From Flavobacteriales bacterium (GTDB lineage: Bacteria; Bacteroidota; Bacteroidia; Flavobacteriales; BACL11), in NCBI GenBank assembly GCA_018652335.1, contig JABICI010000115.1, forward strand, positions 1 through 34,478: a stretch of 34,478 bases of DNA, given 5' to 3'. The notes under the pieces are model-generated. The model saw only the letters and a program-made list of their open reading frames with translations. It searched no databases and was not told where the DNA came from. Below are positions 11,056 to 34,265 of this stretch, piece after piece. How positions within the stretch are numbered: position 1 is the stretch's first letter; every line of letters starts with the position of its first letter. Made by a program: the position numbers and the translations under genes.

Positions 11056-12777
11056 CTATCTTTTTAACACAGGTGCGTGATGCGGTTTAATTCTAGCATC
11101 AATAACAGGAATTGTGCATGAAAAATGTTTATTAACAATTTGAGAATTTAATCCATGCATATCATTTGCAGGATTTGATCTAGTAAAAGTAACCCACAAC
11201 CAATTTGAGAAATCTTCTGCAGTAAAAATCGCATCATCTACAATTGTAATTAGGGCAATTCCATCTAAGCTATGTGATTCTAATGAAATTACTAAATCTT
11301 CAATACTTCCATTTCCCTCAACAACTAAATTACCTGCACTAACTAATCGAGCATTAAGTATATTTTTTGAAAGAGTTAAATATGAAATATCCTTAATTAA
11401 TTTTCTTTTTACATCTCCAGCTGCTGCTAAAACTAATTTCGATCCTTTATTTAAATCATCTCCACTATAATCTAATGTATCAATAGTTGTTTTAGTTTGA
11501 AAATGCAAATCTCTTTTCCAATCAACTCTTTCAAGAAAATGTGTAAAATAGGCTTTCTCATCATTGACGTCAACTAAAGTCTCATCATCACATATAAATA
11601 AATACTTTGCTAAACTCATTTGGCCAGTACCTAAAATATGATTTGCAATAGTTAAAATTTCTTGTGGCTGCTTAACAGGATTATAAGGAGTATATCTTTC
11701 TGAACCAACAGCCAATAATAACGGATGTACTCCAGATTCATCAACTGCATTTACTGCCTTTAAACCTGGAATTTCTTTTTCAATTACATTATCAGTAATA
11801 TCATGAATAAGAGATCCAAATTGAGAATCTTCTTGTGGTGGCCTTCCAACAACAGTAAAAGGCCATATTCCATTTTTCTTAGCATATACTTTATGAACTC
11901 GCAATAAAGGAAAATCATGCTTCAAACTATAATATCCTAGATGATCACCAAAAGGCCCTTCAGGCTTTAATTCATTTGGATGCAACTCGCCACAGATTAC
12001 AAAATCAGCATCTGCTGATATTGTATAACCATCTTTTTTAGAATATCTAAATCTTTTTTTTCCTAAAACACCAGCAAAAGAAATTTCACTCATTCCTTCT
12101 GGTAGTGGCATGACAGCAGCAAAAGTATGTGCTGGAGGACCACCAATAAAAATAGATACTTTTAAAGGCCTTCCTTTTATATTGGCTTTCTTTTGATGCA
12201 CTCCAATACCTCTATGCAATTGATAATGCATACCAATTTCTTTATTTAATATATAATCATTACCAGTCAATTGGATTCTATACATACCTAGATTTGAATT
12301 TAGAATACCAGGATTATTTATATCTTCTGAATAAACTTGTGGTAAGGTAATAAATGAACCGCCATCATTTTTCCAGCATTTAATCTGAGGCAAATCATTA
12401 ATAGTAATTTCTTCAAATCCTTGAAATCTAACTTTTTTTGGTAATGCATAAATACCATTTAAGACAGCAAAAATAGTACGAGGTAAATTTTTAAAAGCAC
12501 CTATTGGGTTTGTTTTTATAGCAATTAAATCTTTCACAATCCGCAAACTATCACGAAATATATACCTACTTCTTGATAACGTACCAAAAATATTAGAAAC
12601 TGCTCTATAATTACAATTTTTAATATTCTCAAAAAGAATTGCTTTTCCTCCATTAGCAAACTCTTCAAGATGAATTGAGGCCATCTCTAATTCTGGATTT
12701 ATTTCTTCTTTAATCTTTTTAAGTTCGTTAACAGAATTTAAATCAGAAATACATGCTTTTAAAGATTTATAACCCAC
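11056..12777 (-). CDS. UbiD family (de)carboxylase
   Basis: A 573-aa member of the prenylated-FMN-dependent UbiD family. Supporting segments are SNLGMYRIQLTG (161-172) and HYQLHRGIG, which form the cofactor/substrate pocket region, IFIGGPPAHTFAA (209-221), and the catalytic-loop motif EGPFGDHLGYYS (273-284), the equivalent of EGPFGEFTGYYS in UbiD. Family members remove carboxyl groups from aromatic or alpha,beta-unsaturated acids and need UbiX for their cofactor; UbiX is not in this window. In Bacteroidetes a role in quinone synthesis is usually assumed, but menaquinone made by the classical route does not need such a step, so the substrate is uncertain. It starts 10 bases after gltA and is the last gene of that unit. 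Confidence 0.88.
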   Translation of the reverse strand: MGYKSLKACISDLNSVNELKKIKEEINPELEMASIHLEEFANGGKAILFENIKNCNYRAVSNIFGTLSRSRYIFRDSLRIVKDLIAIKTNPIGAFKNLPRTIFAVLNGIYALPKKVRFQGFEEITINDLPQIKCWKNDGGSFITLPQVYSEDINNPGILNSNLGMYRIQLTGNDYILNKEIGMHYQLHRGIGVHQKKANIKGRPLKVSIFIGGPPAHTFAAVMPLPEGMSEISFAGVLGKKRFRYSKKDGYTISADADFVICGELHPNELKPEGPFGDHLGYYSLKHDFPLLRVHKVYAKKNGIWPFTVVGRPPQEDSQFGSLIHDITDNVIEKEIPGLKAVNAVDESGVHPLLLAVGSERYTPYNPVKQPQEILTIANHILGTGQMSLAKYLFICDDETLVDVNDEKAYFTHFLERVDWKRDLHFQTKTTIDTLDYSGDDLNKGSKLVLAAAGDVKRKLIKDISYLTLSKNILNARLVSAGNLVVEGNGSIEDLVISLESHSLDGIALITIVDDAIFTAEDFSNWLWVTFTRSNPANDMHGLNSQIVNKHFSCTIPVIDARIKPHHAPVLKR

Positions 12778-12787
12778 TATTAAATAT

Positions 12788-14074
12788 TTATCTGTTTTCT
12801 AAATCAACATAAGGTCTAGCATTTTCTCCAGTATAAACTTGTCTAGGTCTACCAATTGGTTCATGATTCTCTCTCATTTCTTTCCACTGCGCAATCCAAC
12901 CTGGAAGCCTACCTAAGGCAAACATTACTGTAAACATATCTGTTGGGATTCCTAAAGCTCTGTATATTATTCCTGAATAAAAATCGACATTTGGATAAAG
13001 ATTTCTTGATTTAAAATAATCATCCTCTAAAGCTACTCTTTCTAACTTCTTTGCTATTTCAAGAACAGGATCAACTACATTTAGTTCTGTTAAAACATCA
13101 TCTGCAGCTTTTTTAATAATTGTAGCACGAGGATCAAAACTTTTATAAACTCGATGCCCAAAACCCATCAAACGAAAAGAATCGTTTTTATCTTTTGCCT
13201 TAGCTACAAATTTGTCAACATCACCACCATCTAACTTAATTTCTTCAAGCATTTCAATTACTGCTTGATTAGCACCTCCATGAAGAGGTCCCCATAGGGC
13301 TGCAATACCTGCAGAAACTGAAGCATACAAGCTTGCATGAGAGGATCCAACTACTCTTACAGTTGAAGTTGAGCAATTCTGCTCATGATCAGCATGCAAT
13401 ATTAATAGTTTATCAATAGCTTTTGCAATTACGGGACTCACTACGTAATCAGTTGTCGGTAAAGAAAACATCATCTGCATAAAATTTGCAGAATAGCTTA
13501 AATGATTTTTAGGATATACGATTGGTTGTCGCACGCGATTTTTATAACTCCAAGCTGCAAGAGTAGGTAATTTTGCTAAAGCTCTGATAATTGTTCCTTC
13601 AACTTGTTCAGAAGATCGATTAGGATCTAAAGATCTTGGATAAAAAGCAGTTAATGACGACACAAGAGAAGACAATACTCCCATAGGATGGGCCTTTGAG
13701 GGATAACCATCTAATATTGCTCTGACATCTTCATGAACTAAAGAATGTTCTGTTATATCTTTAGTAAAAGTGTCAAGTTCACTTTGGGTTGGCAATTCGC
13801 CATAAATTAATAAAAAAGAAACTTCTAAGAAAGTAGATTTTTCAGCTAATTCCTCAATTGAATATCCTCTGTATTTAAGTACTCCTTCCTCACCATTTAA
13901 AAAAGTTATAGCACTTTCACATGAACCAGTATTCTTAAATCCACGATCTAATGTTATTAGACCTGATTCTCCACGCAACTTACTAATATCTAATGCATTT
14001 TCATTTTCTGATCCAGTTACAATTGGAAGTTTGTAAATTTTACCATTATAATGTAATTCTGCTGTTTTACTCAT
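12788..14074 (-). CDS. gltA: Citrate synthase
   Basis: A type II-like citrate synthase (428 aa) condensing oxaloacetate with acetyl-CoA at the entry to the TCA cycle. The N-terminal domain found in hexameric NADH-sensitive enzymes is present (1-50), followed by YRGYSIEELAE (68-78). Catalytic residues are visible: His265 in GPLHGGANQ, His307 in GFGHRVYKSFDPRA and Asp364 in NVDFYSG. LHADHEQNCSTSTVR (226-240) is the conserved helix before the active site. It lies 27 bases after eno and 10 before ubiD, all in one direction, so it is probably part of a carA-eno-gltA-ubiD transcript. Confidence 0.97.
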   Translation of the reverse strand: MSKTAELHYNGKIYKLPIVTGSENENALDISKLRGESGLITLDRGFKNTGSCESAITFLNGEEGVLKYRGYSIEELAEKSTFLEVSFLLIYGELPTQSELDTFTKDITEHSLVHEDVRAILDGYPSKAHPMGVLSSLVSSLTAFYPRSLDPNRSSEQVEGTIIRALAKLPTLAAWSYKNRVRQPIVYPKNHLSYSANFMQMMFSLPTTDYVVSPVIAKAIDKLLILHADHEQNCSTSTVRVVGSSHASLYASVSAGIAALWGPLHGGANQAVIEMLEEIKLDGGDVDKFVAKAKDKNDSFRLMGFGHRVYKSFDPRATIIKKAADDVLTELNVVDPVLEIAKKLERVALEDDYFKSRNLYPNVDFYSGIIYRALGIPTDMFTVMFALGRLPGWIAQWKEMRENHEPIGRPRQVYTGENARPYVDLENR

Positions 14075-14101: not shown

Positions 14102-15394
14102 TTATTTTTTTAGAAATTTGAAATCCTTTCCTGTGTAAATCGCCTTTTCACCAAGTTCTTCTTCAATTCTTAAAAGCTGATTATATTTAGCTATTCTATC
14201 AGATCTTGAAGCAGATCCAGTTTTGATTTGCCCACAATTAAAAGCAACTGCAAGATCAGCAATAATTGTATCTTCAGTCTCTCCAGATCTGTGACTCATA
14301 ATAGTAGTATAGCTATTATCCTTTGCAAGATTTATAGCATCAACAGTTTCACTTAAAGTACCAATCTGATTAACTTTAATCAAAATTGAATTTGCAATTT
14401 TGTTTTCTATTCCCGTTGTAAGTCGATTTACATTAGTTACAAATAAATCATCACCAACAAGCTGTACTTTATCTCCTATCTTTATTGTCAAAGCTTTCCA
14501 AGCATCCCAATCATCTTCATCTAATCCATCCTCAATTGATAAAATTGGATATTTCTTAGTCCAATCTTTCCAGTAATCAACCATTTGAAGTGGTGTAAGT
14601 TTTTCACCACTTGATTGATGAAAGTGATATAATTTCTCTTTTGAATCGTAGAATTCAGAAGCTGCTGCATCTATTGCGATATACATATCTTCACCAGGAC
14701 GATATCCAGCAGATTCAATAGATTTTAAAACTATTTCTATAGCTTGCTCATTAGATGATAAATTTGGAGCAAAACCACCTTCGTCTCCAACATTAGTAGA
14801 ATATCCATGCTTTTTAAGTTCAGCCTTTAAATGATGAAATACTTCTGTCCCCATTTGTAATGCTTGTGAGAAACAATTTGCACCAACTGGCATAACCATA
14901 AACTCTTGAAAATCAATACTATTATCAGCATGAGACCCACCATTTAATATGTTCATCATTGGAATAGGTAATTCCGTTGCTAGTTCTCCACCAATATGTT
15001 TATAAAGTGAAGTTCTTGATACTAATGAGGAAGCTTTCGAACATGCTAAAGATACAGCAAGCATTGAATTAGCACCTAATATTTTCTTTTCGCTAGTACC
15101 ATCTAAATTAATCATTTTGGTATCGATTAATCTTTGATTAGTTACATCGATTCCACATAATGCTTCATTAATTATAGTATTTACATTTTTCACAGCCTTT
15201 AAAACTCCTTTACCTAAATAAACCTTATTATCATTATCTCTTAACTCTACAGCTTCATAACGACCAGTTGAAGCTCCTGAGGGGACAGCTGCTCTTGATA
15301 TAATACCATCTGATGTATAAACCTCAGCTTCAATTGTAGGATTACCACGAGAATCTAATATTTGCCTTGAATGAATTTTAGTGATTTTACTCAT
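14102..15394 (-). CDS. eno: Enolase (phosphopyruvate hydratase)
   Basis: A 430-aa glycolytic enzyme converting 2-phosphoglycerate to phosphoenolpyruvate, with Mg2+ in the active site. Landmarks: [11 protein letters not shown] (15-25), [16 protein letters not shown] (38-53) with the mobile loop, GDEGGFAP (203-210) with the catalytic Glu205, metal ligands Asp242, Glu288 and Asp315, catalytic Lys340 in [10 protein letters not shown], and SHRSGETED (367-375). Full length with no odd residues. The first bases of eno overlap the 3' end of carA by 8, so its translation is likely coupled to carA. Confidence 0.98.
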
Positions 15395-16496
15395 TTATTT
15401 TTTTAATATTATTAATAAAATTATCAAATAAATATCTTGAGTCATGTGGTCCTGGAGAGGATTCTGGATGATATTGAACAGAGAAACAATTATTATTTAT
15501 CAATCTAATACCTTCAACAGTATCATCATTTAAATTAATATGTGTAATCTTAATATTAGAATTTTCAAATATATCTTCTTTTGATATTCCAAATCCATGG
15601 TTTTGTGATGTAACTTCTGCTTTACCAGTCTCTAAATTCTTTACAGGATGATTAATTCCTCTGTGACCGTTATGCATTTTATAAGTTGAAATTCCTTCAG
15701 AAATTGCTATAGCTTGATGACCTAAGCAAATACCAAAGACAGCTCTTCCATCTTTTATTATTTTCTTAACTTCTGTAATCACATTTGGCATAGCAGATGG
15801 ATCACCTGGACCATTTGATAAAAAGAAACCATTTGGTTGCCACATTTTCATTTCATCATATTTGGTATTCATAGGAAAAACCTTAAGCAAACAACCTCTT
15901 TCAGTTAAACATTTTAATATGTTTTTTTTAACTCCAAGATCTAAAACAGCAATTTTAATATCTGAATTCTTATCTCCTAAAGTATATGATTTATTTGTTG
16001 AAACAGAAGATGAAAGCTCTAATCCATTCATTGAAGGAACTTTACTAAGAATATTAGAAAGCTCATTTAAATCTAATATAGATGTTGAAATTACAGCATT
16101 CATAGCTCCCTTATCTCTAATATGATGTACAACTGCTCTAGTATCAATATCAGAAATTACAATTTTGTTCTGGTTAACAAAAAATGTTTGTAAATCAGTA
16201 TCTCCTCCTTCTCTAGAAAAACCATTATTAAAATTCTTGCAGATTAATCCTGATATTTTTAAATCTAATGACTCAGATTCCTCTTTCTTTACACCATAAT
16301 TACCTATATGAGCATTGGTAGTTATCATTAATTGCCCAAAATAAGAAGGATCAGTAAATACTTCCTGATAACCAGTCATACCAGTATTAAAACACAACTC
16401 ACCAGTAGCTATTCCATCAATACCGTTAGCTTTTCCATGAAAGACAGTGCCATCTTCTAATAATAAAACTGCATTCTTTTTCTTGTTATATTTCAT
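15387..16496 (-). CDS. carA: Carbamoyl-phosphate synthase small (glutaminase) subunit
   Basis: A 369-aa glutamine amidotransferase subunit that supplies ammonia to CarB for carbamoyl phosphate, the precursor of pyrimidines and arginine. N-terminal CPSase_sm domain: about 8-140 ([24 protein letters not shown]). Class I glutaminase domain: 180-365, with nucleophile Cys257 in FGICLGHQ, the conserved QNHGF (298-302), and catalytic His343 and Glu345 in QYHPE. CarB is not in the window. It is first in a carA-eno-gltA-ubiD run following rplQ, an order I recall from other Flavobacteriia. The start is only 8 bases past the U-tract of a terminator-like hairpin, with no promoter element visible in the 69-base gap. 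Confidence 0.97.
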
Positions 16497-16504
16497 TTTA
16501 TTTT

Positions 16505-16533
16505 AAAAAAAAAGGTAAAGCCAAAGCCTTACC
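16505..16533 (-). terminator. Intrinsic terminator / possible attenuator between rplQ and carA
   Basis: Read on the - strand, GGTAAGGC - TTTG - GCTTTACC (16533 to 16514) forms an 8-bp stem with one G-U pair and a 4-base loop, followed directly by nine Ts (16513-16505). This is a textbook Rho-independent terminator, 32 bases after the rplQ stop and ending 8 bases before the carA ATG. It probably ends the ribosomal transcript. Because carA has little room for its own promoter, partial read-through or conditional termination is also possible. Confidence 0.8.
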
Positions 16534-16565
16534 CTTAATTAAATATTAAAAAAGAAGATTAAATA

Positions 16566-17186
16566 CTACTCTCCTTTTTCCTCTTTATTTTCAGCGTCAG
16601 TAACTTCTTTTTCTGTTTTTATATTACTTTCATCTTTTACATCAGATGATTTTTTTTCAACAATATTCTCTTCTACCTTCTCACTAGTAGCAACGTCTAT
16701 AATTTCTGAAGAAGTTACATCCTCTATAATATTATCTTTATTAGATTCAGTTATTGTAGATTGATCTAAATTCTTTTTCCTTGTTCTTCTTGATTTTGAT
16801 TTCTTAGGCTTATTTGTTGTATATTCCTCATTATAATCAACTAACTCAATAATAGCCATCTGAGCATTATCACCAAGCCTATTACTAAGTTTAAGAATTC
16901 TTGTGTAGCCTCCTTGTCTATCTGAAACCTTTGTTGCAATATCACTGAATAATTCTGTAATTGCTTCTTTTTGTTTTAAATAAGAAAAAGCAATTCTTCT
17001 TGAGTGAGTTGTATCATTCTTAGATTTAGTAATTAAAGGTTCTATATATACCCTAAGAGCTTTTGCTTTTGCCAATGTAGTTTTAATACGCTTATGCTCA
17101 ATTAATGAACATGCCATATTTGAAAGCATTGCTTTCCTATGTGCAGATTTTCTACTTAAGTGATTAAATTTTTTTCCGTGTCTCAT
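16566..17186 (-). CDS. rplQ: 50S ribosomal protein L17 with long C-terminal tail
   Basis: Large-subunit protein lining the outside of the exit-tunnel region. The L17 core occupies 1-119 ([20 protein letters not shown] at the start, the conserved [19 protein letters not shown] near the end). It is followed by a strongly basic linker (126-139, [13 protein letters not shown]) and a 65-residue acidic, low-complexity tail rich in Glu, Lys, Asp, Ser and Val. E. coli L17 has 127 aa, so the tail adds about 80 residues; tails of variable length occur in Bacteroidetes L17. It is the last gene of the ribosomal cluster, 21 bases after rpoA, followed by a terminator hairpin. Confidence 0.96.
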
Positions 17187-17207
17187 TTTATTCTAATCTT
17201 TTATTCT

Positions 17208-18179
17208 TTAATTATACTTTTCAACATCAAAACCAAATGTTAATCCTTTCTCGGAAACTAAATCTTCTAACTCAGTAAGTGATTTTTTACCAAAGTTTCT
17301 AAACTTTAACATATCTGATTTTTTAAATGAAACCAACTCACCTAAAGTAAACACCTCAGCAGTTTTCAAACAATTTAGTGCTCTAACTGACAAACCAAAT
17401 TCAGTTAATTCAGTTTTTAAAAGTTGTCGCATGTGTAGTGTATCTTCATCAAAATCATCAACTATTTCCTCCTCTAAATTAATTTTTTCATCAGAAAAAA
17501 GCATGAAATGCTGAATAAGAATCTTAGAAGCTTCAGTTAACGCATTTTTTGGTTCAATTGAACCATCAGTTGTAATATTGAAATTTAACTTCTCGAAATC
17601 GGTCTTCTGACCTACTCTATAATTTTCTATATTATAATTAACATTTTTAATTGGAGTAAAAATTGAATCAATCGCAATTGTACCAATTGAAGCATCTTCA
17701 TCTATATTTTCATCTGCAGGAACATATCCTCTTCCCTTTGAAATAGTAAATTCCATCTCAAAAGTAACAGATTTATTCATTTCACATATTACTTGGTCAG
17801 TATTAAGAACTTGAAAATTAGATAAACTACTTGCAATATCAGCTGCAGTTACATTATCACTCTTTGTAACTTTAAGAGTAGCAACTTCAGATTCAACAGA
17901 ATCAATTTGTTGCTTGAACCTAACTTGCTTGATATTTAAAATAATTTCTGCTATATCCTGAACAACACCTTCAATAGTAGAAAATTCATGATCAACACCA
18001 GTTATCTTAATTGATGTAATAGCAAATCCTTCTAAAGATGATAACAAAACTCTTCTTAAAGCATTACCAACAGTTAAACCATATCCAGGTTCAAGAGGAC
18101 GAAACTCGAAATTTCCTTGATTAGCTTCCTCATTTATCATTATAACCTCATCAGGCTTTTGAAAATTTAAAATTGACAT
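17208..18179 (-). CDS. rpoA: DNA-directed RNA polymerase subunit alpha
   Basis: A 323-aa alpha subunit whose dimer nucleates RNA polymerase assembly. N-terminal domain: about 1-235, with the dimer helix [20 protein letters not shown] (32-51). Flexible acidic linker: 232-248. C-terminal DNA- and activator-binding domain: about 253-313, with the UP-element-binding residues kept (Arg266, Asn269 and Lys272 in [14 protein letters not shown] 297-301). It is complete and of normal size. It sits between rpsD and rplQ, as in the alpha operon of most bacteria, with gaps of about 20 bases. Confidence 0.98.
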
Positions 18180-18198
18180 ATTTAATTTTTTAATTATT

Positions 18199-18804
18199 TT
18201 ATTTGGAGTATAACTCTACTATTACTTGTTCTTTAATATTCTCTGGAATCTGAATTCTTTCAGGTGCAGCTATTACCTTACCAACTTTTGTTTCTGAATT
18301 AAATTCAAGCCATTCCATTTGAATTTTATTAGAAGCAATTGCATTGTCAATTACTTCTAAAGATTTTGATCTTTCTCTAACAGATACTAGATCACCAACT
18401 CTCAAGGCAAAAGAAGGTATATTAATATTATCACCATTAACAGTGATATGATTATGCGTCACCAATTGTCTTGCTGCTCTTCTTGTAGGAGCAAGTCCTA
18501 ATCTAAATACAACATTATCTAAACGCATCTCACACATTTGAAGTAAAACTTCACCTGTAACTCCTTTTCTTCTGAGCGCCTCTTTAAACAAATTAGAAAA
18601 TTGCTTCTCTAAGATACCATAAGTAAATTTAGCTTTTTGCTTTTCCATTAACTGCACACCATAAGCAGATTCTTTTCCTCTTCTACGTTGATTACCATGC
18701 TGTCCGGGACCATAAGCTTTTTTTGCTAAAGCTTTATCTGGACCAAAAATTGGTTCTCCGAATCTTCTTGCTATTCTTGATGTTGGGCCTGTATATCTTG
18801 CCAT
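18199..18804 (-). CDS. rpsD: 30S ribosomal protein S4
   Basis: A 201-aa primary 16S rRNA-binding protein that starts assembly of the 30S body and helps secure decoding accuracy. The N-terminal region has [19 protein letters not shown]. The S4 RNA-binding domain begins at [11 protein letters not shown] (93-103) and includes [18 protein letters not shown] (107-124). There is no N-terminal zinc-binding cysteine cluster, so this is the zinc-free form. Slightly shorter than the E. coli protein (206 aa). It lies between rpsK and rpoA in the alpha part of the cluster. Confidence 0.98.
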
Positions 18805-18822
18805 TTTTTTTAATATAATTAA

Positions 18823-19203
18823 TTAAACTCTTCTTTTCTTAGGTGGTCTACATCCATTATGTGGTAATGGAGTAATATCAATAATTTCTGTTACGATAAT
18901 TCCTGAATTATGAATCGATCTAATTGCAGATTCTCTACCTTGACCAGGTCCCTTAACATAAACCTTTACTCTTTTTAGACCTTTCTCAAGAGCAACTTTT
19001 GAACAATCTTCCGCTGCCATCTGAGCAGCATAAGGAGTGTTCTTCTTTGATCCTCTAAATCCCATTTTACCCGCAGATGACCAAGAAATTACTTGTCCAC
19101 TGTTATTTGTTAGTGAAATGATAATATTATTGAAGCTCGCATGAATATGCGCTTGTCCCTCTGCTTCAACTCTTACTGTATTTTTTTTTGTTGTTTTAGC
19201 CAT
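18823..19203 (-). CDS. rpsK: 30S ribosomal protein S11
   Basis: A 126-aa protein of the 30S platform near the E site and the 3' end of 16S rRNA. Recognisable segments are [16 protein letters not shown] (18-33), [32 protein letters not shown] and the C-terminal [18 protein letters not shown]. The N-terminus [16 protein letters not shown] is short and basic as in Bacteroidetes relatives. It starts 8 bases after rpsM and is followed 18 bases later by rpsD. Confidence 0.98.
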
Positions 19204-19211
19204 ACTATGTT

Positions 19212-19589
19212 TTATTTAGTTGCAATCTTTTTGTTAGCAACTGTTTTCCTTTTTCCTTTTCTAGTTCTAGAGTTGTTTTTAGTTTTCTGTCCTCTCAGAG
19301 GTAAGCCAGTTCTGTGACGTATACCTCTATAACAACCAATATCCATTAGTCGCTTAATACTCATCTTAGTCTCAGCTCTTAATTCTCCTTCTACTGTGTA
19401 GTTATCAGCTATAATAGCTCTGATAGCACTTGCTTGTTCATCTGTCCAATCTTGAACCTTAATATCATGAGAAATTTTTGCTTCATCTAAAATTGCTTTT
19501 GCAAAAGATGAACCAATTCCATATACATAAGTTAATCCAATAACTCCTCTTTTATTTTTTGGTAAATCAATACCTTGTATTCTTGCCAT
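19212..19589 (-). CDS. rpsM: 30S ribosomal protein S13
   Basis: A 125-aa head protein of the small subunit that contacts the P-site tRNA and forms bridges to the large subunit. It begins [20 protein letters not shown], has the helix-two-turn-helix segment [16 protein letters not shown], then [17 protein letters not shown] (about 92-108), and ends in the basic tail that reaches the tRNA ([18 protein letters not shown]). Length is normal. It starts 2 bases after rpmJ, so the two are closely coupled. Confidence 0.98.
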
Positions 19590-19591
19590 TT

Positions 19592-19708
19592 TTAACCTTG
19601 TCTTTGTTTATATCTAGGGTTTTTTTTATTGATTACATAAACGCGACCTTTTCTTTTCACGATGATGCAATCTTCACTTCTTTTTTTTACTGATGCTCGT
19701 ACTTTCAT
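19592..19708 (-). CDS. rpmJ: 50S ribosomal protein L36 (zinc-free type)
   Basis: Translating the - strand from the ATG at 19708 gives an intact 38-aa protein beginning [20 protein letters not shown] and ending [12 protein letters not shown]. It lies exactly between infA and rpsM, the usual place. Compared with the zinc-binding form (Cys11, Cys14, Cys27, His33), only Cys14 remains; the others are Ser11, Asn27 and Tyr33. It is therefore the C-minus type, which cannot hold a zinc ion in the usual way and is common in Bacteroidetes. L36 binds 23S rRNA near the base of the L7/L12 stalk. Confidence 0.95.
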
Positions 19709-19722
19709 TTTCTTTTTTTTAA

Positions 19723-19938
19723 TTAGTACCTGTAAGTTATTCTTCCTTTTGTTAAATCGTAAGGAGACATCTCAAGTTTTATTTTATCGCCAGTTAATAG
19801 TTTTATATAGAATTTTCTCATTTTACCAGAAATATGTGCAACAACTTCATGTCCATTTTCAAGTTCAACTCTAAACATTGCATTTGATAATGCTTGCACT
19901 ATTACGCCATCTAATTCTATATTTCCTTGTTTAGCCAT
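19723..19938 (-). CDS. infA: Translation initiation factor IF-1
   Basis: A 71-aa single OB-fold protein that covers the A site of the 30S subunit during initiation. The sequence is typical: [41 protein letters not shown], then [22 protein letters not shown]. The length equals the family standard. Its start overlaps the end of map by 8 bases, and rpmJ follows 14 bases later, so it is embedded in the ribosomal transcript between map and rpmJ. Confidence 0.98.
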
Positions 19939-20704
19939 TTATTTTTTTTTCTATATCTACAAAACTTGATAATATTTCCGCCTTTCCTTTTCGAACAACA
20001 ATAGTGTGTTCAAAATGTGCAGATGGTTTATTATCAATAGTTGTTATTGTCCATCCATCGTTATGTTGCTTTATACCTCTTTTACCCATATTAATCATTG
20101 GTTCAATTGCAATTACTAAACCTTCTTTAAGAATAATTCCATTTCCAGATTTACCATAATTAGGTACTTCAGGAGATTCGTGTAATTTTTTTCCCAAACC
20201 ATGACCTACTAACTCTCTTACAACTGAATAACCAAAAGATTCAGCATAATTTTGAATAGCTGAACTGATATCACCAATTCTATTTCCAACACAAGCCATT
20301 TCAATTCCTTTTAAAAGTGATTCTTTTGTAACTTCAAGTAACTTTTTAGTACTATCATTAACAATACCAACTTCATAAGTATAAGCGGAGTCCCCATAGT
20401 AATCATTCATTAACACGCCACAATCAACTGATAGAATATCTCCATTTTTTAATACATTACTATTTGGAATACCGTGTACTACTTGATGATTTGGTGACAT
20501 ACAAAGGGTATTAGGAAAACCATTATATCCCTTAAAAGCAGGTTCACCACCATTATCTCTAATAAATTCTTCAGCAATTTTATCTAATGCTAAAGTTGTT
20601 ATCCCAGGTTTAATAAGCCCTGCAATTTCTGCATGGGTATTAGCAACAAGTAAAGAACTTTTTCTAACTAAATCTATCTCTTCTTCTGATTTATAATTTA
20701 TCAT
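19931..20704 (-). CDS. map: Methionine aminopeptidase, type I
   Basis: A 257-aa dimetal enzyme that removes the initiator methionine from new proteins with small second residues. The pita-bread fold ligands are all present: Asp94 (LSVDCGV), Asp105 (YYGDSAYT), His168 ([11 protein letters not shown]), Glu201 (AIEPMINMG) and Glu232 ([10 protein letters not shown]), plus the substrate-site His77 (QVVHGIPN). No N-terminal SH3-binding or zinc extension. It is placed between secY (9 bases before) and infA (8-base overlap), linking nascent chain maturation with secretion and initiation genes. Confidence 0.97.
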
Positions 20705-34114: not shown

Positions 34115-34122
34115 CAAATTTA
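34115..34122 (-). promoter_or_regulatory. rpsL: Candidate -7 promoter element TAAATTTG for the ribosomal cluster
   Basis: On the - strand TAAATTTG, followed by CCGCCC, fits the Bacteroidetes -7 consensus TAnnTTTG. It lies 25 bases before the rpsL ATG, giving a very short leader. A second match, TATATTTG, lies at 34168-34175 and would give a leader of about 70 bases. Neither has a clear TTG -33 element at 17-23 bases. The promoter must lie in the 147 bases between rpsL and the terminator at 34237. Confidence 0.5.
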
Positions 34123-34167: not shown

Positions 34168-34175
34168 CAAATATA
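34168..34175 (-). promoter_or_regulatory. rpsL: Alternative -7 element TATATTTG for the ribosomal cluster
   Basis: A second exact TAnnTTTG match on the - strand, 78 bases before the rpsL start. It could be a tandem promoter with the element nearer the gene, or a chance match in AT-rich DNA. Confidence 0.35.
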
Positions 34176-34236: not shown

Positions 34237-34265
34237 AATGGGTGCTAAATATTTTAGCACCCATT
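34237..34265 (-). terminator. Strong intrinsic terminator after the T9SS type A gene
   Basis: A perfect 13-bp stem, AATGGGTGCTAAA with TTTAGCACCCATT, and a 3-base loop (TAT), much richer in G+C than its surroundings. On the - strand it is followed by TTTTATATTTTC, a U-rich tail, 31 bases after the stop codon of the gene entering from the right. It insulates the ribosomal promoter region from upstream transcription. Confidence 0.85.

Follow-up and report, generated by a model that had tools for sequence, protein, structure and literature searches.

By its sequence, the element that closes the ribosomal-protein cluster behind rplQ in the window (the whole stretch of 34,478 nucleotides analyzed here) is an intrinsic, Rho-independent terminator of the ordinary kind. 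In the reading that we favor, this terminator is probably partial, and read-through past it feeds carA-eno-gltA-ubiD. It would halt many polymerases, not all, and through the leak carA-eno-gltA-ubiD would be transcribed less than the ribosomal genes. If this is true, enolase, citrate synthase and carbamoyl-phosphate synthase would track the transcription of ribosomal-protein genes at a constant proportion throughout the whole family, and one conserved hairpin would set the enzyme-to-ribosomal-protein ratio.

The rplQ–carA junction

The DNA is contig C76 of an assembly (hereafter the own genome) of 1.57 Mb in 143 contigs, and the genes concerned lie on the minus strand. The last gene of the ribosomal-protein cluster is rplQ (16566..17186), which encodes L17 with a long C-terminal extension (TIGR00059, 141.9 bits over residues 7–117 of 206). 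It is followed by carA, for the small subunit of carbamoyl-phosphate synthase (15387..16496; TIGR01368, 430.9 bits), which overlaps by 8 nt with the enolase gene eno (14102..15394; TIGR01060, 669.5 bits), and then by gltA for citrate synthase (12788..14074; NF004126, 636.9 bits) and a gene for a UbiD-family decarboxylase (11056..12777). The last is assigned by TIGR00148 (251.4 bits, cut-off 244.85); its best E-value is to TIGR03701, yet the score is under the TIGR03701 cut-off. The gene order around rplQ-carA is widely conserved among relatives. The extension of the 206-residue L17 past the conserved 117 residues aligns poorly in relatives, and the score of the protein (16566-17186) against the NCBIfam 'sunset domain variant' is half of what the cut-off demands. 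No carB is found in the own genome (G000) by Pfam PF02787, versus 14 positive among 14 control genomes; as the assembly is 87.6% complete, carB may simply be missing from it.

Between the rplQ stop codon (16568-16566) and carA lies a gap of 69 nt (16497..16565, minus strand) that holds a hairpin at 16511..16536 with the sequence AAGGGTAAGGC-TTTG-GCTTTACCTTT, defined by folding and by comparison with relatives. Its 8-bp core pairs 16533-16526 with 16521-16514 across the loop UUUG and includes one G-U pair; three more pairs lengthen the core to 16536/16511 and give 11 pairs, 4 of them G-C. An uninterrupted tract of nine U (16505..16513, minus strand) follows, the first three of which may also form the lowest base pairs of the stem. 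Together the hairpin and the U9 tract span 16536-16505, after which 8 nt remain to the carA ATG (16496-16494). The description in the first-pass annotation, an 8-bp stem with nine T ending 8 nt before the carA ATG, is thus borne out at 16533-16505.

The features that define an intrinsic terminator are a stable hairpin, a U tract of 7–9 directly 3' of the stem, and compensatory change among relatives. The stem-loop alone, with 11 bp and a loop of 4, folds at -12.3 kcal/mol, and the U9 tract at 16513-16505 adjoins it. For the complete element of 41 nt the folding energy is -13.8 kcal/mol (z -3.78), a stability matched by 2 of 200 dinucleotide shuffles. A loose terminator scan by itself has no significance, finding 2 in 9 kb versus 2.4 expected. 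Under a stricter rule, 6 of the 78 co-directional gaps of the own genome have a terminator, versus a summed expectation that rounds to 0.0 when these gaps are base-shuffled. Terminators favor the sense strand, with 24 sense versus 10 antisense in 168 co-directional gaps of genome G010 and 6 versus 3 in the 78 gaps of the own genome. The energy of the rplQ hairpin is unremarkable among the terminators scored, and therefore no claim is made that this terminator is weak.

Compensatory change is found as well. An alignment of 62 of the 85 distinct hairpins gives a 12-bp helix in which 96.1% of 744 cells are paired, a share that is inflated by the choice of hairpins with a stem finder. Nevertheless, 9 of the 12 pairs are altered on both sides within the 62 hairpins. 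The double-changed cells number 83, versus 17.0 in shuffles (none of 500 reaching 83) and no more than 29 after a shift of the helix by 1–3 columns. Because the finder succeeded in nearly every locus, such picking cannot explain double changes at the same aligned positions.

Conservation and attachment to rplQ

A search for carA gave matches in 91 of 100 genomes, and some of these matches are other amidotransferases. The loci retained, one per genome, number 70 and comprise the own locus and relatives, 30 from the first carA search and 40 from further searches, with the remaining rows of the first search left out. The comparison of the rplQ–carA gap in related genomes that had been called for in the first-pass annotation finds the stem and T run conserved ahead of carA in 66 of these 70 loci, including 42 of 42 in the family of the window; since the stem is present in close relatives, the contrary outcome named there, its absence from them, does not hold. 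The finder required a T run, so it is the near-universal presence of the element that speaks for a terminator and not the T run in those found. In one locus without the hairpin (L061) the carA start chosen, which reduces the gap to 11 nt, is probably wrong, in another (L067) carA is not adjacent to rplQ, and L070 and L072 are short loci at contig ends in which no rplQ was found.

A second collection, drawn from species genomes and overlapping the first in part, comprises the best 80 of 550 relatives and has rplQ upstream of carA on the same strand in 64 loci. A hairpin lies at most 160 nt past the rplQ stop in 60 of the 64, and none within this distance in L108, L115, L120 and L130. A core of the form GGRTA/TAYC is kept in 45 of the 64 and is present in Winogradskyella, Aquimarina, Kordia, Polaribacter and Lutibacter. 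When the core was used as a search pattern, matches were obtained in 40 of 100 genomes, and the only two places away from the rplQ–carA site are in G068 and G095. In the same search the control with the pattern reversed has two matches in all. Word searches of the open-access literature found neither the gene order nor the terminator in titles, PMC7247131 aside.

Throughout the 60 loci the hairpin starts 27.7 ± 4.3 nt past the rplQ stop, whereas the distance from its end to carA ranges from 13 to 187 nt in the same loci and up to about 1 kb across loci. Even where rplQ and carA are separated by more than 600 nt (15 loci), the hairpin lies at most 160 nt past the rplQ stop in 12 and is absent in 3; the common core is found in 7 of these 12 hairpins, including those of L102, L104, L119, L122 and L124 with 0.8–1.1 kb between the genes. 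A set of 26 genomes, in which carA is absent, elsewhere or cut off or the gap had not been examined, was searched for rplQ and 21 were positive. At least 149 nt are available behind rplQ in 17 of these, with a hairpin in 12 and none in 5 (one genome of family f11 and four of f16). For 10 of the 12 hairpins no carA was found downstream in the locus. The hairpin letters differ in 8 of the 10 (f4, f6, f12 and one f8 genome), and the core is kept without carA in G071 (f8) and G060 (f10). The near-constant distance to rplQ and the variable distance to carA indicate that the terminator belongs to rplQ.

Other terminators of the family provide a scale for this conservation. Behind genes that we take, from recognizing their sequences, to be rpsT, a zinc-ribbon-like gene and trxA, a terminator is found in 23 of 27, 25 of 30 and 10 of 20 loci, respectively, in the family of the window, versus the 42 of 42 behind rplQ. 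Among genomes shared with the controls, the rplQ hairpin has an identity of 0.78 between genera, versus 0.69 for the zinc-ribbon-like terminator, and of 0.62 between families, versus 0.54 for the trxA terminator. Within the family of the window, however, the trxA terminator, at 0.86, is above the rplQ hairpin at 0.76. The notion of an exceptional letter conservation of the hairpin was therefore dropped, the values being modestly above controls and trxA higher within the family. atpD was also dropped as a control, since none of its 30 loci has a terminator in the first 130 nt downstream.

The near contact of the hairpin with the carA start is likewise an ordinary feature. Among the 24 gaps with a sense terminator in 400 kb of G010, 9 have a stem whose end is separated from the next ATG by no more than 22 nt, and in 177 kb of the own genome 2 of the 6 terminators among 78 gaps lie within 14 nt of an ATG; genes in both were called by a simple ORF rule, so that single cases may be wrong. 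The trxA and zinc-ribbon-like terminators also reach the next ATG in several genera. Terminators near the next ATG are thus common in the family of the window, and the contact at carA is not special: it is the shortness of the gap in these compact genomes that places the T run beside the carA ATG, rather than any role as a carA-specific device. Even if read-through should prove false, the lesson remains that a terminator near a start codon is common here and is alone no sign of regulation.

Promoter boxes and the supply of carA

The promoter box TAnnTTTG is strongly enriched upstream of genes, with 77 versus 12.3 expected in G010 and 33 versus 6.6 expected in the own genome. In the part of the Flavobacterium johnsoniae study consulted, the box is refined to TAHHTTTG and placed 4–5 nt before the transcription start (PMC6847099). 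The statement in the first-pass annotation that the 69-base gap lacks TAnnTTTG is correct, and the window has none in the 500 nt upstream of carA either; the same 500 nt are without the box in a genus-mate. Across the family of the window, the 500 nt upstream of carA contain a box in 8 of 36 loci, which is the chance level (a mean of ∼0.29 is expected per region), whereas divergent genes of G010 have one within 150 nt in 34 of 46 (Fisher p 5e-6, for sequences that are not independent). This contrast favors read-through among the three options considered in the first-pass annotation, the other two being a promoter within rplQ and a regulated attenuator. As 12 of the 46 divergent genes have no strict box, a missing box is no proof of a missing promoter.

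Further loci bear on the same question. In three 0.6-Mb genomes of f16 (L360, L361 and L362) eno sits directly on the rplQ stop, and carA, the hairpin and any space for a promoter between rplQ and eno are all missing. In these genomes eno therefore depends either on ribosomal transcripts or on a promoter within rplQ. Against a partial terminator it counts that U9 and -12.3 kcal/mol would suit efficient termination, and against read-through that 5 of the 6 terminator gaps of the own genome do hold a box between terminator and ATG, carA being the exception. In G010 10 of 24 terminator gaps hold such a box, and the missing box of carA is therefore not unique.

A promoter for the whole unit may lie ahead of the cluster. 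A TAAATTTG box at 34115..34122 (minus strand, box scan) is the candidate; it precedes by 25 nt the ATG (34089) of the opening gene of the cluster, inferred from gene order to be rpsL. The same scan finds a second box, TATATTTG, upstream of the cluster at 34168..34175 (minus strand). A 13-bp hairpin with a T-rich flank (34237-34265) lies between the preceding gene and these two boxes. On the strength of gene order, ribosome synthesis and the pyrimidine, glycolytic and TCA genes may plausibly be linked, as proposed in the first-pass annotation. A stronger version, which we regard as doubtful, would make the ribosomal terminator the sole valve for carA-eno-gltA-ubiD throughout this family of compact Flavobacteriales, with the carA promoter gone, the leak fixing the ratio of enzyme to ribosomal protein, and the U tract doubling as the carA translation start region.

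Alternatively, the terminator may be complete and carA transcribed from its own promoter, located toward the 3' end of rplQ or over the hairpin and T run and of a form other than TAnnTTTG; we consider this possible though somewhat unlikely. carA can have its own promoter, since 9 of 11 loci of f2, f3, f8 and f13 have a box in the interval from terminator to ATG, versus 7 of 42 in the family of the window (Fisher p 1e-4, kinship not corrected for), and the box-bearing terminator gaps of the own genome provide examples of terminator-promoter pairs. The gap at carA also contains a one-mismatch box, TACCTTTT, 13 nt upstream of the ATG. Nevertheless, the strict box is at chance upstream of carA in the family of the window, and one-mismatch boxes in the 500 nt before carA in the own genome show no excess, with four versus 5.3 ± 2.1 expected. 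The promoter inside rplQ proposed in the first-pass annotation finds no support, but a non-consensus promoter is possible. That a carA promoter might be general outside the family of the window was weakened by the lack of a strict box behind the terminator in 13 of 13 loci of f5, f7, f9, f14 and f15, and in many Flavobacteriaceae among the best 80 of 550. Promoter-like sites from a sigma-70 scan are at shuffle level and were set aside.

Within genus g10, TAAATTTG occurs 3 nt before the carA ATG in 6 of 13 loci and is lost in close relatives; this box is possibly a leaderless promoter and counts against read-through. As a separate observation, the TAnnTTTG boxes of G010 peak exactly 4 nt before the ATG (15 of 77, L203-L222; none at 3, 5 or 6 nt), and in the own genome 7 of 33 lie 3–5 nt before it (L185-L200). 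A box ∼4 nt before the ATG, with the transcription start 4–5 nt behind the box according to the part of the F. johnsoniae study consulted (PMC6847099), would place these genes in a leaderless class, which suggests a sizeable class of leaderless mRNAs in the family of the window.

A regulated attenuator, in which a competing structure, a protein or a nucleotide level would make carA answer to pyrimidines, arginine or ribosome assembly, is improbable. The position ahead of a pyrimidine/arginine gene and the conserved stem are consistent with it, and an L17 downstream element follows L17 genes in Firmicutes, as described in the parts of PMC2864571 and PMC7247131 consulted. However, the conserved structure is a single stem, the stretch from rplQ to the hairpin is unlike between most genera (by eye, 17 loci), and the hairpin is found behind rplQ both with and without carA. 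The rplQ stop, ∼30 nt from the hairpin, would also be too far away for a terminating ribosome to block it. Leader and riboswitch families of Rfam have no match at cut-off in the window and none close around the gap in a permissive scan, and no second element common to genera is visible by eye upstream of the hairpin in these 17 loci, so that the attenuator of the first-pass annotation is left without support. A Termite-leu match near the gap (28.5 of the 51 bits required) was rejected as a generic shape of hairpin, T run and ATG. The S4-Flavobacteria leader (RF03141) was also rejected: its letters AAGGATAA are common to some of the hairpins and are paired differently, and the leader itself is found only elsewhere in relatives (L062:2193-2225 and L113:630-662), with none at cut-off in the window.

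Finally, that the hairpin is not mainly a terminator and serves instead to stabilize the 3' end of the ribosomal mRNA or to bind a protein there is very improbable: the core that is nearly confined to the rplQ–carA site and the greater constancy of the hairpin relative to the three control genes speak for it, but the identities exceed those of the controls modestly, with trxA higher within the family, and a hairpin with a T run is present in nearly every locus.

Relation to known systems

The L17 downstream element RF01708 resembles the present case in being a structured RNA directly behind rplQ. Its covariance model has no match in the window at the gathering score, nor in permissive scans (six loci; 16400-20000), and the part of PMC7247131 consulted describes it as restricted to Firmicutes. 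In Flavobacterium psychrophilum, transcribed regions are assigned to partial termination as a 3'-PT class according to the portion of PMC9723704 available to us, which is a precedent, in a flavobacterium, for polymerases running beyond a predicted intrinsic terminator; the difference is that the portion consulted has no mention of this locus, and carA is not named in the main text.

With the intrinsic terminators of ribosomal operons the element shares a G+C-containing stem, a short loop, an immediate U tract and a short, nearly fixed distance past the last ribosomal gene. It differs from them in that the 69-nt gap leads to a gene in the same orientation, carA, for which no promoter is recognizable. 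Read-through past a partial terminator would bring it close to the ioTTS of the archaeon Methanococcus maripaludis, where, in the part of PMC10450193 consulted, expression is set by an internal terminator that separates ribosomal from RNA polymerase genes. The M. maripaludis case was established by 3'-end mapping and mutation, whereas ours is read from sequence; in both, a terminator between ribosomal-protein genes and other genes lowers, or here would lower, the expression of those behind it without abolishing it.
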